NCBI RefSeq assembly: GCF_028728065.1
Contig: NZ_CP117811.1
Coordinates: forward strand, 1,116,001-1,180,000
Direction of reading: 5' to 3'
DNA length: 64,000 bases
Source: Lentisphaera profundi
GTDB lineage: Bacteria > Verrucomicrobiota > Lentisphaeria > Lentisphaerales > Lentisphaeraceae
A program made the translations under genes and the position numbers. Each line of letters opens with the position of its first letter. Positions within the stretch are counted from its first letter, which is position 1. The notes below the pieces were generated by a model. That model made no database searches. It was not told where the DNA came from and worked only from the letters and a program-made list of their open reading frames with translations. Shown here piece after piece: positions 1 to 55,006 of this stretch.

Positions 1-951
1 AAATATGCCGACCATTTACCTCTTTATCGTATCGAAGAGCAATTCAAACGAGATGGACTTACTATTGCGCGACAAACGCTTTCCAACTGGGTTCTCCAGT
101 TAGGAAAAACTCTCCAACCTTTAGGTGATTTATTACGAGATCAAATTTTAAACTCATCAAGAGTTTTTACAGATGACAGCCCTGTTAAGCTTCAAACAAA
201 AGGTAAAGGTAAGCTTCAAGAAGGTCGGATTTGGGTTTATGTCGGCGGCGATGGTCCAGACCCTCCTCTCGTTTGGTTCGAATTCACCAAAGACCGTTCA
301 CACTCCCATACATTAGATCGAATGAAAGACTTTCAAGGAGTTTTTCATGCCGATGCTTTTGCTGCGTATGAAAAAATGGATAAGCTTGATGGTATCGATT
401 GGCAGGCTTGCTGGGCTCATGCCAGGCGTAAGTTTTTTGACACACCCAATCCAAACGAATTCTGTAAACAAGTGCTTATTTTGATGGATAAGCTCTTTGA
501 ACTCGAACAGGATGCTTGGGCGCTTGGTACTTCGGCAAAGCGACAGAGCTTTCGCAATAGGAAAACAAAGCCTTTTGTTGAAGCTCTATTAAAGACGATT
601 CAAGATCATTACTACAAAGCATGTGAGCCCAAAGGCAAACTTAAAACGGCAATGGAGTACCTACTTAAACGGCAAGAAGCATTTAAAGCTTTTCTTGCTT
701 ATCCGGATGCTCGCATAGATAACAATGTGAGTGAACGCGCTATTCGTCCGCTTACTATTGGTAGAAAAAACTGGCTTTTCTTCGGCAGTGAAAAAGGCGG
801 CCAAGCGGCTGCCAATATCATCTCCTTAATCCAGACTTGTCGTAAGCTGGGTATCAATCCAAAAGAATACTTAGAGGATGTGCTCAGGAGAATCATTGAT
901 CACCCAAAAGAAAATTTAATGGAACTCCTACCACAAAACTGGAAGAAATAG
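1..951 (+). CDS. tnpC: IS66-family transposase TnpC, 5'-truncated by the window edge
   Basis: Reading frame 1 is open from the first base and corresponds to residues 180-495 of the complete transposase at 51855-53342. The two nucleotide sequences agree almost perfectly over 951 bases; I see one C/T difference near position 43 (52434 in the other copy). It contains the DDE_Tnp_IS66 catalytic region and ends in the same NWKK residues. The near-identity means recent transposition or duplication within this genome. The first internal ATG (322) is not a real start. The upstream part lies outside the window. Confidence 0.95.
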   Translation, partial: KYADHLPLYRIEEQFKRDGLTIARQTLSNWVLQLGKTLQPLGDLLRDQILNSSRVFTDDSPVKLQTKGKGKLQEGRIWVYVGGDGPDPPLVWFEFTKDRSHSHTLDRMKDFQGVFHADAFAAYEKMDKLDGIDWQACWAHARRKFFDTPNPNEFCKQVLILMDKLFELEQDAWALGTSAKRQSFRNRKTKPFVEALLKTIQDHYYKACEPKGKLKTAMEYLLKRQEAFKAFLAYPDARIDNNVSERAIRPLTIGRKNWLFFGSEKGGQAAANIISLIQTCRKLGINPKEYLEDVLRRIIDHPKENLMELLPQNWKK

Positions 952-1148: not shown

Positions 1149-1370
1149 TCTTCGGCAGTGAACAAGGAGGCCAGGCGGCCGCCAATATCATCTCCTTAAT
1201 CCAGACTTGTCGTAAGCTGGGTATCAATCCAAAAGAATACTTAGAGGATGTACTCAGGAAAATTATTGATCACCCAAAAGAAAATTTAATGGAACTCCTC
1301 CTGCAAAACTGGAAAAAATAGACTTTTTTTCGAAATAGACATTCAAATATTCAGCTCAATTGACGCTTAC
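1149..1370 (+). mobile_element. Older remnant of the same IS66 element (3' end only)
   Basis: This stretch repeats the last ~170 bases of tnpC plus the right terminal end (finishing TTGACGCTTAC at 1370). It carries several substitutions not shared by the two near-identical copies, for example GAACAAGGAGGCCAGG where they read GAAAAAGGCGGCCAAG. It is therefore a diverged, decayed insertion lying about 150 bp downstream of a recent one. It starts abruptly inside the coding region and encodes nothing functional. Confidence 0.9.
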
Positions 1371-1494
1371 TTTTTGTGAGCTATTGATCGAGTATATACA
1401 ATAGATTACAGGGCAGTCTTTAGGTGGAGTGAACCCCCTAAGTTATGGCTAATAATAAGCTAGAGTTATATGTAGTTGTATGAGATCTAGGCAT

Positions 1495-1521
1495 AAAAAA
1501 ACCGGTGAAGATCACCGGTTT
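1495..1521 (-). terminator. Rho-independent terminator of hisD
   Basis: AAACCGGTGA and TCACCGGTTT pair perfectly around a 3-base loop. On the minus strand the stem is followed by a U-run (the A-run at 1495-1501). It lies about 30 bases beyond the hisD stop. Confidence 0.9.
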
Positions 1522-1552: not shown

Positions 1553-2839
1553 TTATTCGAAGCGAATAGTTCCGCTTCTACCGTGAGCGTCGAGTCCTTC
1601 AGCTTTTGCGAAGGCCGCAACAGCGCCGACTTCTCTTTGTAGAGCTTCTTTACTGTATTTAATAAGACTCGTTCTACGAAAGAATTGATCAACAGTTAGG
1701 CCCGAGAAGTGATGACCCGCTCCGCCAGTAGGAAGAACATGGCTTGGGCCGGCAACGAAATCACCAACGGGTTCAGGTGTCCATGGGCCGAGGAAGATAG
1801 CGCCAGCATTAGTAATTAAATTGGCTATATCTTCTGCGTTTTCACAAATGATTTCCAAATGTTCGGGTGCATAAAGATCGGCAACTTCAGCAGCTGCTTG
1901 CATGTCATTTACTTTGATAAAGAAGATCCCATTATCCAAAACTTTGTCGACACATTCAGAGCGACTGAGCAGTTCTTTTTGAATGAGGACTTCTTTTTCA
2001 ACTTCGAGGATAAGTTCAGCACAATCACTGACCATAACGGCTTGTTCAAAACCTGAACCATGTTCAGCTTGTGAGAGCAGATCAGCAGCAATGAATTTTG
2101 CAGGTGCAGTTTTATCAGCAATGACCATAACTTCAGAGGGTCCAGCGACTAAGTCTAAAGAGCAATAACCATAAACTTGGCGTTTTGCCGCGGTGACGTA
2201 AGCATTGCCAGGTCCGCAAATTTTGCGAGCGCGTTTAATGCTTTCTGTTCCGTAGGCAAGGGCGCCAATAGCGTAAACACCACCAAGTTTTAAAACTTCA
2301 GTTGCACCAGCTTTTTTCGCAGCATAGAGAATGGCGGGATTTACTGAGCCATCCTTTTGTGGAGGTGTAGTGATGACAATTTCAGGGACGCCTGCAGCTT
2401 TAGCAATGGCAGCGGTATGTAAAACAGTGGAAACCAGTGGGGCGGTTCCGCCAGGGACATAACAGGCTATGCGAGAGAGTGGGGCATATTTTTCTCCAAG
2501 CTGAACACCTTCACGAGGAGAGTAATTCCAGGCCTTCGGGAGTTTTTGGCTAGAGAAGTCAATGATGTTGGCTGCGGCAAGATCAATGGCATCTTTGATG
2601 TCTTGATCCACTTTGTCGTCAGCCGCATCGAGTTCTTCTTGACTCACATGGAATTCACCTGCAGATAGATCTACACCATCAAACTTTTTGGCGTAATGAC
2701 AAATAGCTTCATCACCACGTTTGCGAATATCGCAAAGTATTTCATTTACGCTAGCAGCAATATCTTCAGGAAAGGCATTGCGTTCAAAAAGGGGGTCAAA
2801 TGCCGCTGTACAGCGACCGGTAAATTCCAAATGTATCAT
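1553..2839 (-). CDS. hisD: Histidinol dehydrogenase
   Basis: 428 residues, the usual family length. It catalyses the last two steps of histidine synthesis: NAD-dependent, zinc-dependent oxidation of L-histidinol to L-histidine in the cytoplasm. Family signatures visible include PGGTAPLVSTVLHTA, ICGPGNAYVTAAKR, AGPSEVMV, LSQAEHGSG with the catalytic histidine, APEHLEI, and the C-terminal AEGLDAHGRS. The ATG at 2839 follows the purO stop by two bases and its AAGGA ribosome-binding site lies in the end of purO, so the two genes are probably co-transcribed and translationally coupled. A terminator follows at 1495-1521. Confidence 0.96.
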   Translation of the reverse strand: MIHLEFTGRCTAAFDPLFERNAFPEDIAASVNEILCDIRKRGDEAICHYAKKFDGVDLSAGEFHVSQEELDAADDKVDQDIKDAIDLAAANIIDFSSQKLPKAWNYSPREGVQLGEKYAPLSRIACYVPGGTAPLVSTVLHTAAIAKAAGVPEIVITTPPQKDGSVNPAILYAAKKAGATEVLKLGGVYAIGALAYGTESIKRARKICGPGNAYVTAAKRQVYGYCSLDLVAGPSEVMVIADKTAPAKFIAADLLSQAEHGSGFEQAVMVSDCAELILEVEKEVLIQKELLSRSECVDKVLDNGIFFIKVNDMQAAAEVADLYAPEHLEIICENAEDIANLITNAGAIFLGPWTPEPVGDFVAGPSHVLPTGGAGHHFSGLTVDQFFRRTSLIKYSKEALQREVGAVAAFAKAEGLDAHGRSGTIRFE

Positions 2840-2841
2840 TT

Positions 2842-3483
2842 TTATTTATCCTTAAAAGCAACCTGAAATTTGTCGCCATCAGCAATTGCACAAACTGCAG
2901 AGATTGGTTTTTCTAAGTCAGCAAATACGCCTTTTCCAAGGATGTAATCACAAGCTTCTTCAGCGGATTCAACATGGAAGTCCGAATCTTTGAGGTGAAT
3001 ACTCGGGGTATTGTGATTATAGGTGGCTACATAAAAAGCTTGACCAGGTTCGAGCGTGATACGAGAAACATGTAGTGCATCTTCACGAACAGTACCAAGA
3101 GCAGCTTCGCCAGTTTTGAGGTTCACAATCGAGGCAATACGTGGAGTATTTAGGTGGTCGTGCTCATAATCCATACCAAAAAGACCACTTACAAGAGCGT
3201 CACGCATATTCATGCCAGCATCGATCTTTTCGGTGATGGGGTCAGTGTGAGATCCATTAGTAGCGATAGCATATTGACCATCTTGGCTAATGCGTAGGCA
3301 GTTGTAGGCGATGTAAGGGTTTTTCATGATGTCATCTTCATGACCTGGCTTGGGTATAATGGCAATACCGCGCTCAACTTCAACAGCGTGACGATTTGGG
3401 AACGAGTTAGAAGATACGCGATACATGGCACAGATTTTGCCATCTTTTGTTTTTGCAACGGACACGATACGGCCTACGTACAT
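2842..3483 (-). CDS. purO: Archaeal-type IMP cyclohydrolase (PurO family)
   Basis: 213 residues. The sequence closely follows the PurO fold family (IMP_cyclohyd) known mainly from archaea: MYVGRIVSV, YRVSSNSFPNR, NPYIAYNCLRI, NGSHTDPI, MDYEHDHLNTPRIA and HVSRI all match the archaeal pattern I remember. PurO closes the purine ring, turning FAICAR into IMP; most bacteria use the C-terminal part of PurH for this. It sits directly upstream of hisD. That is chemically apt, because histidine synthesis releases AICAR, the precursor of FAICAR. The ATG at 3483 is preceded by AAGGA. Family assignment is strong; the exact reaction is inferred from the family. Confidence 0.88.
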   Translation of the reverse strand: MYVGRIVSVAKTKDGKICAMYRVSSNSFPNRHAVEVERGIAIIPKPGHEDDIMKNPYIAYNCLRISQDGQYAIATNGSHTDPITEKIDAGMNMRDALVSGLFGMDYEHDHLNTPRIASIVNLKTGEAALGTVREDALHVSRITLEPGQAFYVATYNHNTPSIHLKDSDFHVESAEEACDYILGKGVFADLEKPISAVCAIADGDKFQVAFKDK

Positions 3484-3531
3484 GAGAAATCCTTATGGTT
3501 TTATATAATTTAGTTTAAAGTCGTAATAAAC

Positions 3532-3604: not shown

Positions 3605-4918
3605 TTATTTATCTGGATTATTTTTTCTAGGACGACGTTTTTGATTAAACTTTTTATCATTAGCACCGTCTTTTTTTCTTGGTGCATTAGAGCTCTGCTT
3701 AGGGCTTCTACTACGATTTTGGCGATTATCATTACGACGTTTCTTTGATTCTTTACCAGCTTGTTTCGCTTGCTCGTGAGTTGGCGTTTTTTCAGTGATG
3801 CCAGGAACGTTTTTAACAGTAATGCTTTTTTTGATTAATTTTTCAATGTTAAAAAGGAAGCTTGCTTCATCAACTGATACAAGTGAAATGGCTTCGCCAG
3901 AACATCCTGCACGGCCAGTACGACCAATACGGTGGACATAATCTTCTGGTATTTCAGGGAGTTCATAGTTGACTACGTGAGGGAGTTTATCAATATCAAT
4001 ACCACGAGCGGCAATATCTGTAGCGACGAGAACACGTACTTTGCTATCTTTAAAGTCGGCAAGGGCACGGGTACGAGCATTTTGACTTTTATTGCCGTGG
4101 ATAGCCGCTGAGCTGATACCATCAGTAATGAGCATGTCTGATAGTTTATTAGCCCCATGCTTGGTTCGAGTAAAGACTAGGACCTGATTCCAATTACCAT
4201 TTTTAATTAAATTGGAGAGTAGGTGGCGTTTTTTAGTTTTTGCGAGGTGATAAACGGCTTGGTCTACTGTTTCTGCCGACGTGTTTTCGCGGGCAACTTC
4301 TACTAAGCTGGGATTGCGAAGGATACTTTCGGAAAGGATTTTTATGTCCTTAGAGTAAGTAGCAGAGAAAAAGAGTGTTTGTCTTTTTTGTGGAACTAAT
4401 TTAATGATTTTTCTGATGTCATGAATGAAACCCATGTCAAGCATACGGTCAGCTTCATCGAGGATGAGGTATTCAATTCTTGAGAGATCTAGGGCTTTTT
4501 GTCCAGCTAGGTCGAGTAAGCGTCCTGGCGTACCAACAACAATGTCAACACCTCTACGCAATTTTTGGATTTGTGGATTAATGCCCACACCGCCAAAAAT
4601 AACTGTAGAACGAATATCTAGGCCTTTGCCATAGAGTTCAACACTTTCTGCTACTTGAGCAGCAAGTTCTCTTGTGGGAGTTAAAACCAAAGCTCTAGGG
4701 CGATGTCCGCCACGCTCTTTACCAGTACTTAAAAGGTGTAATATAGGGAGTGTGAAAGCGGCTGTTTTTCCTGTGCCCGTTTGAGCGCCAGCTAGAATGT
4801 CACCACCCTTAAGGATGATAGGGATAGCCTGTTCTTGAATAGGAGTAGGTTGAGTATAACCCTGGAATTTAATTCCAGTTAAAATTTCGGTCCTTAGACC
4901 AAGGTTTTCGAAAGACAT
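3605..4918 (-). CDS. rhlE: DEAD-box ATP-dependent RNA helicase, RhlE-like
   Basis: 437 residues. All superfamily 2 motifs are present in order: Q-motif region (GYTQPTPIQ), [10 protein letters not shown] (Walker A), PTREL, GTPGR, DEAD (Walker B), SAT, then in the second RecA domain [20 protein letters not shown] and HRIGRTGR. From about residue 375 a basic, disordered tail rich in K, R, N and Q is typical of the RhlE/CsdA group and probably binds RNA. The likely role is RNA unwinding in ribosome assembly or mRNA turnover. The start at 4918 precedes the conserved aromatic of the Q-motif (SFENLGL), as expected. Confidence 0.93.
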
Positions 4919-51854: not shown

Positions 51855-53342
51855 ATGCTATATTATTTCATGACTAAAACTATCTCAGACCTCACCAAAA
51901 AAGTTGTGTTTTTAGAAGAGGAAAACACCTATCTAAAAGCCCAGCTGTATGGTCGTAAAAAAGAGACTGTAGTCTTTGATAACTCAGATACTTTTCCTGA
52001 GTGGACTGAATACCTTAAGGATCTGGGCGATTCAAATTCACCAGAAAGAGATGAAGAACCCAAAGTAAATACCCTAAAAAAGAAGAAGAAACGCAAGCCC
52101 TTTACGCATTTCAATTTCCCTGAGAATGCTGAACGCGAAATTAAAATCATTGATTTGCCCGAAGATGAAAAAGTTGATCCCATAACTGGTGTAGAACTGA
52201 AACTCATGGGATTCGATACATCAGAAAAACTTGTTTATGTTCATGGTCGTTACAAAGTCATAGAGACTCGTGTACGTAAATACAATATTCCAAATAAGCC
52301 CAAGGCAGGAGTTATCTCCGCTCTAGTTCCCAGCCATCCGATAACAGGCTGTCGTGCTGATGTGAGCTTGTTGTCACATATACTCATTTCAAAATATGCC
52401 GACCATTTACCTCTTTATCGTATCGAAGAGCAATTTAAACGAGATGGACTTACTATTGCGCGACAAACGCTTTCCAACTGGGTTCTCCAGTTAGGAAAAA
52501 CTCTCCAACCTTTAGGTGATTTATTACGAGATCAAATTTTAAACTCATCAAGAGTTTTTACAGATGACAGCCCTGTTAAGCTTCAAACAAAAGGTAAAGG
52601 TAAGCTTCAAGAAGGTCGGATTTGGGTTTATGTCGGCGGCGATGGTCCAGACCCTCCTCTCGTTTGGTTCGAATTCACCAAAGACCGTTCACACTCCCAT
52701 ACATTAGATCGAATGAAAGACTTTCAAGGAGTTTTTCATGCCGATGCTTTTGCTGCGTATGAAAAAATGGATAAGCTTGATGGTATCGATTGGCAGGCTT
52801 GCTGGGCTCATGCCAGGCGTAAGTTTTTTGACACACCCAATCCAAACGAATTCTGTAAACAAGTGCTTATTTTGATGGATAAGCTCTTTGAACTCGAACA
52901 GGATGCTTGGGCGCTTGGTACTTCGGCAAAGCGACAGAGCTTTCGCAATAGGAAAACAAAGCCTTTTGTTGAAGCTCTATTAAAGACGATTCAAGATCAT
53001 TACTACAAAGCATGTGAGCCCAAAGGCAAACTTAAAACGGCAATGGAGTACCTACTTAAACGGCAAGAAGCATTTAAAGCTTTTCTTGCTTATCCGGATG
53101 CTCGCATAGATAACAATGTGAGTGAACGCGCTATTCGTCCGCTTACTATTGGTAGAAAAAACTGGCTTTTCTTCGGCAGTGAAAAAGGCGGCCAAGCGGC
53201 TGCCAATATCATCTCCTTAATCCAGACTTGTCGTAAGCTGGGTATCAATCCAAAAGAATACTTAGAGGATGTGCTCAGGAGAATCATTGATCACCCAAAA
53301 GAAAATTTAATGGAACTCCTACCACAAAACTGGAAGAAATAG
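51855..53342 (+). CDS. tnpC: IS66-family transposase TnpC
   Basis: 495 residues, full length. An N-terminal coiled coil (KKVVFLEEENTYLKAQL) precedes a basic stretch (KKKKKRKPFTHF), a helix-turn-helix region and the DDE domain: SRVFTDDSPVKL (first Asp), FHADAFAAYEKM (second Asp), WAHARRKFFD and NNVSERAIRPLTIGRKNWLFFGS (catalytic Glu region). The ending KLGINPKEYLEDVLRRI matches other IS66 transposases. It cuts and joins the element ends. Confidence 0.96.
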   Translation: MLYYFMTKTISDLTKKVVFLEEENTYLKAQLYGRKKETVVFDNSDTFPEWTEYLKDLGDSNSPERDEEPKVNTLKKKKKRKPFTHFNFPENAEREIKIIDLPEDEKVDPITGVELKLMGFDTSEKLVYVHGRYKVIETRVRKYNIPNKPKAGVISALVPSHPITGCRADVSLLSHILISKYADHLPLYRIEEQFKRDGLTIARQTLSNWVLQLGKTLQPLGDLLRDQILNSSRVFTDDSPVKLQTKGKGKLQEGRIWVYVGGDGPDPPLVWFEFTKDRSHSHTLDRMKDFQGVFHADAFAAYEKMDKLDGIDWQACWAHARRKFFDTPNPNEFCKQVLILMDKLFELEQDAWALGTSAKRQSFRNRKTKPFVEALLKTIQDHYYKACEPKGKLKTAMEYLLKRQEAFKAFLAYPDARIDNNVSERAIRPLTIGRKNWLFFGSEKGGQAAANIISLIQTCRKLGINPKEYLEDVLRRIIDHPKENLMELLPQNWKK

Positions 53343-53567: not shown

Positions 53568-54155
53568 ATGAAAACAACAGATAAGATAGTGAAGTATTAT
53601 CAAGAGTTCCCTGGGGTGCACAGCCTGAAGGAACTTGAGGCTATTGGTGGGTATCCTAATTTGGTACGCAAACTGGTAGATAATGGTCAGCTGGAAGAAG
53701 TAGCTCGAGGGCTTTATCGGCTTTCGGCTCAGGAAGAAGCTGAGCATGCAGATCTCGAAGCTATTGCCATGGCAGTACCAGCGGGAGTCTTTTGTCTACT
53801 CAGTGCACTGAGTTATCATAATATAGGAACAGCGCAGGCCTTCGAGTATCACCTCGCTATTCCCAAAGGGAAACGATCACCACAGCGTCCTGAGTTCGCT
53901 ATACAGAGTTATCAGTTCGGTGGTCGTTCCTATGAGAGTGGGATAGAGCAATACGGTAAAATCAAGGTTTATAGTATTGCCAAGACTGTAGCTGACTGCT
54001 TTAGGTTTCGAAATCGGATAGGTCTAGATGTGGCCTTGGAAGCTCTAAAGGATGTTCTGCGCAATAAGCGCGCTTCGGTAGCGGAACTAGTGGATATGGC
54101 AGAAGCCTGTCGCATTAAGAGTGTGATGATGCCTTACCTGGAATCATTGATATGA
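53568..54155 (+). CDS. abiEi: AbiEi antitoxin / transcriptional regulator (type IV TA)
   Basis: 195 residues. N-terminal winged helix (GVHSLKELEAIGGYPNLVRKLVDNGQLEEVARGLYRL), then the AbiEi antitoxin core (FCLLSALSYHNIGTAQAFEYHLAIPKG, YSIAKTVADCFRFRNRIGLDVALEALKD). In AbiE systems it represses the operon and counters AbiEii without binding it. An AT-rich leader carries AAGTGTCATA and AAGTGTGATA direct repeats 44 bp apart, the second overlapping the start, as possible operators. It overlaps abiEii by 4 bases. Confidence 0.9.
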   Translation: MKTTDKIVKYYQEFPGVHSLKELEAIGGYPNLVRKLVDNGQLEEVARGLYRLSAQEEAEHADLEAIAMAVPAGVFCLLSALSYHNIGTAQAFEYHLAIPKGKRSPQRPEFAIQSYQFGGRSYESGIEQYGKIKVYSIAKTVADCFRFRNRIGLDVALEALKDVLRNKRASVAELVDMAEACRIKSVMMPYLESLI

Positions 54156-55006
54156 AAAATCATGCTGCTTCGATAAGAGCCCGGCTAAAGAATCTAATGA
54201 AGATCACGAATGAAGCTCTGAACTTTATCGAGTTACAGTACGTCCAGGAGCGCTTCCTTTATCGCTTATCTCAGTCGACACACAAGGAGCAATTTGTGCT
54301 TAAGGGTGGTACGCTCTTCTACGCTTGGGCTAAGATGAAGTACCGACCCACAAAGGATCTGGATTTTATGTTTTATGGCGACCTGGGGCGCGAAACCTTA
54401 CTTCAGCAGATTAAGGAGATTTGTGCAATATCCTACCCAGAGGACGGTATTGCCTTCCAGTGGGATAGCTTTTCATATGAAGAGATTAAAGAAAATCATG
54501 AGTATGATGGAGTGCGCATTCACTTTGAGGCCAAGATAGGATCATCGAGGATTACGATGAAGCTTGATGTCTGTACAGGAGATAAGATAACTCCTCAGCC
54601 GGAGGAGCATAGCTATCCGAACTTGCTGGGCGAGAGTCATGAGCTAAATCTGAAGATGTATCCTAAGGAAACGGTAATAGCTGAGAAGGTTCATGCGATG
54701 ATTAGTTTAGATATTGCGAATAGTCGAATGAAGGACTTCTTTGATGTCTATATTTTGTTGTCGGACTTTGAGGCTGATTTGGACGAGCAGTTGGTAGCAA
54801 AAGCCTTGGCAGTGACCTTCGAGCATAGAGCGACAAAAATCCCTAGCTTGCCCGCACGTGTATGGAAAAAATACTTTTATGCAGATGAGTCTAAGAATAT
54901 ACAATGGAATGCTTTTCTGAAGCGTAATAAGATCTTGAAGAATATCAGTCTAGAAGAGGTATGTAAGACGATTGGGGCGAGAGTGAATCCATTATTTAAA
55001 AGCTAA
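54152..55006 (+). CDS. abiEii: AbiEii nucleotidyltransferase toxin (type IV TA)
   Basis: 284 residues of the AbiEii/AbiGii/MenA toxin family. Nucleotidyltransferase motifs: FVLKGGTLFYAW, then RPTKDLDFMFYGD with the metal aspartates, ITMKLDVCTGD (third acidic), and KEVIAEKVHAMIS-like KETVIAEKVHAM with the conserved lysine, then RMKDFFDVYIL. Relatives add nucleotides to tRNA ends and stop growth, giving phage defence by abortive infection. The ATG overlaps abiEi as ATGA. Confidence 0.92.
   Translation: MKNHAASIRARLKNLMKITNEALNFIELQYVQERFLYRLSQSTHKEQFVLKGGTLFYAWAKMKYRPTKDLDFMFYGDLGRETLLQQIKEICAISYPEDGIAFQWDSFSYEEIKENHEYDGVRIHFEAKIGSSRITMKLDVCTGDKITPQPEEHSYPNLLGESHELNLKMYPKETVIAEKVHAMISLDIANSRMKDFFDVYILLSDFEADLDEQLVAKALAVTFEHRATKIPSLPARVWKKYFYADESKNIQWNAFLKRNKILKNISLEEVCKTIGARVNPLFKS

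Follow-up and report, generated by a model that had tools for sequence, protein, structure and literature searches.

In most bacteria, bifunctional PurH (TIGR00355, NF002049) joins an N-terminal cyclohydrolase to an AICAR formyltransferase (AICARFT). The PurO-type IMP cyclohydrolase, known from M. thermautotrophicus (PDB 1kuu/2ntk) and T. kodakarensis (TK0430, PMC6797443), has been regarded as a signature of archaea or of euryarchaea, with PurO-like genes reported in 22 of 1266 bacteria (PMC6797443), and was described as exclusively archaeal in another survey (PMC4177761). In Halobacteria and Methanosaeta thermophila, PurH1 is an AICARFT without the cyclohydrolase half and PurO supplies the final step (PMC3261824). 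Two Chloroflexota genomes (G245 and G382) likewise use two proteins, PurO and a stand-alone AICARFT of the PRK07106 type (NF005492). Our literature search found no paper tying Lentisphaerae to an IMP cyclohydrolase.

The Lentisphaera PurO described here shares with the archaeal enzymes full-length homology, the catalytic residues and the expected reaction, but its host is a bacterium and its partner is a stand-alone, folate-dependent AICARFT in place of PurP. This partner is homologous to the AICARFT half of bifunctional PurH but lacks the N-terminal cyclohydrolase half and falls below the curated PurH cut-offs. It also belongs to a different subfamily from the PRK07106 enzymes, reaching 105 bits where the model requires 415 (G245, 598; G382, 614). 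While PurH1 is fused to PurN in Halobacteria, the Lentisphaeria AICARFT is free, and the pair is fixed throughout the class. The PurO family is known; the class-wide swap and the relatives with a split PurH are new. We conclude that PurO and the free AICARFT very probably replace PurH, an arrangement ancestral in Lentisphaeria that probably arose in two steps. The data show what the genes are, which residues they conserve, how they are distributed over the class, that the two cyclohydrolases exclude each other and how the formyltransferases group in a tree; enzyme activity, the order of the two steps and co-transcription are inferred.

The window, the whole 64,000-nucleotide stretch analyzed, comes from a Lentisphaera genome of 5.46 Mb in 2 contigs, estimated to be 96% complete. 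As the initial annotation had proposed, it encodes a full-length PurO (Table 1). The protein passes both curated NCBIfam cut-offs, matching NF003167 (IMP cyclohydrolase) over residues 1-212 with 224.9 bits (cut-off 150) and TIGR01922 (purO_arch) over residues 1-210 with 206 bits (cut-off 158.35). PF07826 from Pfam (193.2 bits, E 4.6e-57, full length) and the archaeal structures 1kuu/2ntk (residues 1-211, E ~1e-49) agree. The columns of M. thermautotrophicus residues 30, 54, 59 and 104 hold R, N, Y and E in the window protein, and the Arg, Tyr and Glu columns (30, 59 and 104) are invariant in an alignment of 65 homologues, including all 53 Lentisphaeria rows; we take these three numbers to be those of the catalytic residues proposed by Kang et al. 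2007. Catalytic Arg, Tyr and Glu are the residue types described for PurO, together with the substrate-contacting Asn54 (PMC6797443, PMC3261824). The window gene encodes a complete PurO-type IMP cyclohydrolase with predicted FAICAR-to-IMP activity, and from its 47.5% identity to the M. thermautotrophicus enzyme of solved structure an NTN-hydrolase fold without autoprocessing is predicted.

Table 1. Features of the purO-hisD locus, the distant AICARFT gene and mobile-element neighbors; positions are those of the window unless a contig is named
Feature	Position	Strand	Details
IS66 transposase gene, partial copy	1-951		window start
Duplicate of IS66 3' end	1149-1373		225 bases, 94%
Intrinsic terminator 3' of hisD	1499..1521	(-)	10-pair stem plus T run
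hisD, histidinol dehydrogenase	1553..2839	(-)	428 aa; TIGR00069, 474 bits
purO, IMP cyclohydrolase	2842..3483	(-)	213 aa; NF003167, TIGR01922, PF07826, PDB 1kuu/2ntk, catalytic Arg/Tyr/Glu columns
AAGGAT Shine-Dalgarno-like site of hisD	2848..2853	(-)	within the 3' end of purO
AAGGAT Shine-Dalgarno-like site of purO	3489..3494	(-)	direct reading; AAGGA core kept in three Lentisphaera species
DEAD-box helicase gene (RhlE-like)	3605..4918	(-)	upstream neighbor, 121 bases before purO
IS66 transposase gene, full copy	51855-53342
Two overlapping genes, AbiEi/AbiEii type by eye	53568-55006		beside the full IS66 copy
Stand-alone AICARFT	contig C1, 623514-624629		371-aa ORF (L001:1468-2583); PF01808 match G000:C1:623547-624407

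Only 2 bases separate the stop of purO (2842) from the start of hisD (2839), and hisD is present in a single copy in the genome (one PF00815 match). Except at the two gap bases, the junction, AAGGATAAATAA-NN-ATG, does not differ among three Lentisphaera species. In Lentisphaera marina, the closest named relative, PurO is 93% and HisD 92% identical and the gene order is the same. The genes had been described as fused by operon; they are adjacent but separate, and they likely form a short transcription unit in the genus. A search of the correct strand upstream of purO gave no sigma-70 type promoter, and the single Rfam match near the gene was a chance one, with no RNA family or riboswitch recognized. 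The DEAD-box helicase gene upstream probably lies outside the system.

A look through the rest of the genome for purH and purP, the check suggested at the outset, returned only a stand-alone AICARFT. PF01808 finds a single gene, 494 kb from purO, whose ORF covers positions 192-510 of the PurH model with 272.9 bits against a cut-off of 402 and is homologous to residues ~190-511 of PurH; because the alignment is partial and the score falls below the cut-off, this gene is the AICARFT half of PurH alone. It contains the motif KHVNPSG, and the Lys-His pair of AICARFT is catalytic. The cyclohydrolase of PurH uses the MGS fold, and the MGS domain in this genome is confined to one 1078-aa frame of CarB size. 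No bifunctional purH, with an N-terminal MGS-type cyclohydrolase fused to AICARFT, was found in the genome, a stand-alone PurH-type cyclohydrolase used as query gave no match there, and the C-terminal domain of PurP (PF06973) likewise had none. The window encodes a dihydropteroate synthase, which supports folate synthesis. The retained C-terminal half of PurH would thus convert AICAR to FAICAR with 10-formyl-tetrahydrofolate, and PurO would convert FAICAR to IMP, the two together substituting for bifunctional PurH. Lentisphaera would take the final purine step by PurO because its PurH is reduced to one half.

The same division of labor extends across the class. Among 241 genomes of the phylum, 82 of them class members, PurO is present in 83, comprising 81 of the 82 class members and two outsiders (G059 and G224). 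A PurH-type cyclohydrolase occurs in 156. Of these, 155 have no PurO, and the remaining one is a class member, G203, whose match is weak (E = 1e-5) and lies in a 1030-contig assembly. Subtraction leaves 82 genomes with PurO alone, 155 with the PurH type alone, one with both and three with neither. Fisher's test for this exclusion gives p = 1e-59, a value that merely describes the pattern because the genomes are related. The three with neither (G040, G048 and G234) also lack AICARFT. They include the only PurO-negative class member, G040, which at 96% completeness is missing hisD as well and is probably auxotrophic for both purines and histidine. Class members encode AICARFT as a free protein, most of the frames measuring 370-420 aa, while most genomes outside the class carry a fused PurH of 510-590 aa. 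Since PurO occurs in 81 of 82 sampled class genomes, the swap is ancestral to Lentisphaeria rather than recent, and the non-orthologous replacement put forward initially is supported by the exclusion across the phylum as well as by the gene content of this genome. An entire bacterial class relies on PurO after losing the PurH cyclohydrolase, which makes it a clear example of a fused enzyme with one half replaced by a non-orthologous protein, and pathway predictors that demand a complete PurH would miscall Lentisphaeria as purine auxotrophs.

A likely intermediate survives in relatives. Outside Lentisphaeria, some 38 genomes of the phylum, probably Kiritimatiellia, encode a free cyclohydrolase of ~225-250 aa, and most of these also a free AICARFT of ~440 aa; in the two genomes examined, the genes lie on different contigs (G077, L166:1045-1722 and L157; G133, L167:1039-1728 and L158). 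In the AICARFT tree, Lentisphaeria form one clade (100/99) joined to the split-PurH group (99/97), and the two together are separate from both fused PurH and the stand-alone Chloroflexota enzymes of the PRK07106 type. This topology suggests that PurH fission preceded the PurO takeover, an order we favor with moderate confidence, given one gene tree with long branches. The fission of PurH, giving two genes, would have come first, before Lentisphaeria and this group diverged, and the freed cyclohydrolase gene would then have been lost as PurO took over.

The outsiders G059 and G224 carry a divergent PF07826 subfamily of ~242-246 aa with an NPYPGRG start (L134:5059-5787 and L133:4715-5443, respectively), which falls below the curated PurO cut-offs and retains the catalytic Arg, Tyr and Glu. 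Further members of this divergent subfamily were seen at L150:4666-5406 (G268), L151 and L153. Since no PurH-type cyclohydrolase was found in G059 or G224, replacement may have occurred more than once. The phylum could on balance preserve a stepwise record of how a near-universal bifunctional enzyme was replaced domain by domain, from fused PurH to split PurH to a class-fixed exchange of the cyclohydrolase for PurO, with a second, independent exchange for a divergent PurO-like protein perhaps in the related group (G059).

The horizontal gain proposed in the initial annotation is plausible, but it would have to be ancient: PurO is class-wide, its tree mostly tracks families, and the GC content and codon usage of the window gene resemble those of its neighbors, giving no sign of recent arrival. 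Recent transfer was rejected on the class-wide distribution and codon usage. Class PurOs are 42-55.5% identical to the M. thermautotrophicus protein, and the most distant of them are merely 46-47% identical to the window PurO. In a tree that included one archaeal sequence, this sequence was placed among Lentisphaeria, but a single Lentisphaeria clade was not rejected (p-AU 0.139), so its placement is unsure and an archaeal origin unproven. T. kodakarensis PurO is only 32-35% identical to the PurOs characterized earlier (PMC6797443), which suggests that the Lentisphaeria proteins belong near the methanogen type. In Rhizobium, Agrobacterium and Neorhizobium, accessory plasmids also carry PurO as an orphan gene with no adjoining purine genes (L070-L073; CP140806, NZ_AP023285, CP090555 and CP140858), its product sharing 39-42% identity with the window protein. 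A search of a plasmid collection returned PurO from Rhizobiaceae only, and a phage search gave one weak unannotated match.

Comparison of gene places and fetched flanks, in which some contigs end too early to judge, identified purO and hisD as same-strand neighbors in 10 of the 95 sampled class genomes with hisD: G000 (the genome studied here), G209 and G448 of the genus Lentisphaera, and G126, G114, G462, G186, G453, G460 and G480. The order purO then hisD occurs in eight families (f1, f5, f7, f11, f12, f60, f62 and f63). The adjacency is therefore not conserved class-wide; it is far above chance and resembles an old arrangement lost on many occasions. The gap is 2-5 bases in Lentisphaera and G126 and often ~60-250 elsewhere. 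A PcrA/Rep/UvrD-like helicase gene lies 3' of purO in 20 of the 65 tree rows, a large group of other families, and a divergent family-B DNA polymerase of ~657 aa in several class members (L116:2523-4496, L119).

The pairing had been interpreted as a means of balancing AICAR derived from histidine synthesis, after horizontal gain of purO; a rival explanation along these lines has purO recently acquired from an archaeon by this genome and placed in the hisD operon. Archaeal PurO is indeed up to 55.5% identical to class members, the 2-base spacing is kept in three Lentisphaera species and the adjacency recurs in eight families, but the class-wide PurO and ordinary codon usage already contradict recency. 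AICAR is released by HisH/HisF, HisD carries out the last two oxidations, and PurO consumes FAICAR. Because of this, and because the AICARFT that would use AICAR lies so far from purO, the balancing idea finds no support; the fact that the genes are adjacent in no more than 10 of the 95 genomes also speaks against it, and the combined proposal is very improbable. A looser function, in which one promoter shared by both genes would coordinate the closing steps of two pathways that consume PRPP and selection would have kept the old order in some families, has an appreciable though minor chance of being correct. Same-strand pairing in eight families, far above random, and a terminator after hisD would fit it, but gaps outside the genus are often ~60-250 bases, most families have lost the pairing, many having the helicase gene instead, and no further histidine or purine gene was recognized beside the pair in the fetched flanks.

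It is likewise very improbable that PurO catalyzes another reaction here while an unknown cyclohydrolase makes IMP. Such a cyclohydrolase has been suspected in some archaea (PMC3261824) and the rhizobial orphans indicate that PurO can occur in unclear contexts, but the catalytic residues are kept in Lentisphaeria and the exclusion of the PurH cyclohydrolase is near-perfect. We favor the replacement of PurH by PurO and AICARFT, with the purO-hisD unit representing an old neighborhood of two housekeeping biosynthesis genes, without demonstrated regulatory purpose.

Two overlapping genes in the window resemble by eye an AbiEi/AbiEii type toxin-antitoxin pair, with no NCBIfam match at E 1e-10, and lie beside a full copy of an IS66 transposase gene. 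A partial copy of an IS66 transposase gene is found at the window start, and a duplicate of the IS66 3' end lies just beyond the hisD terminator.
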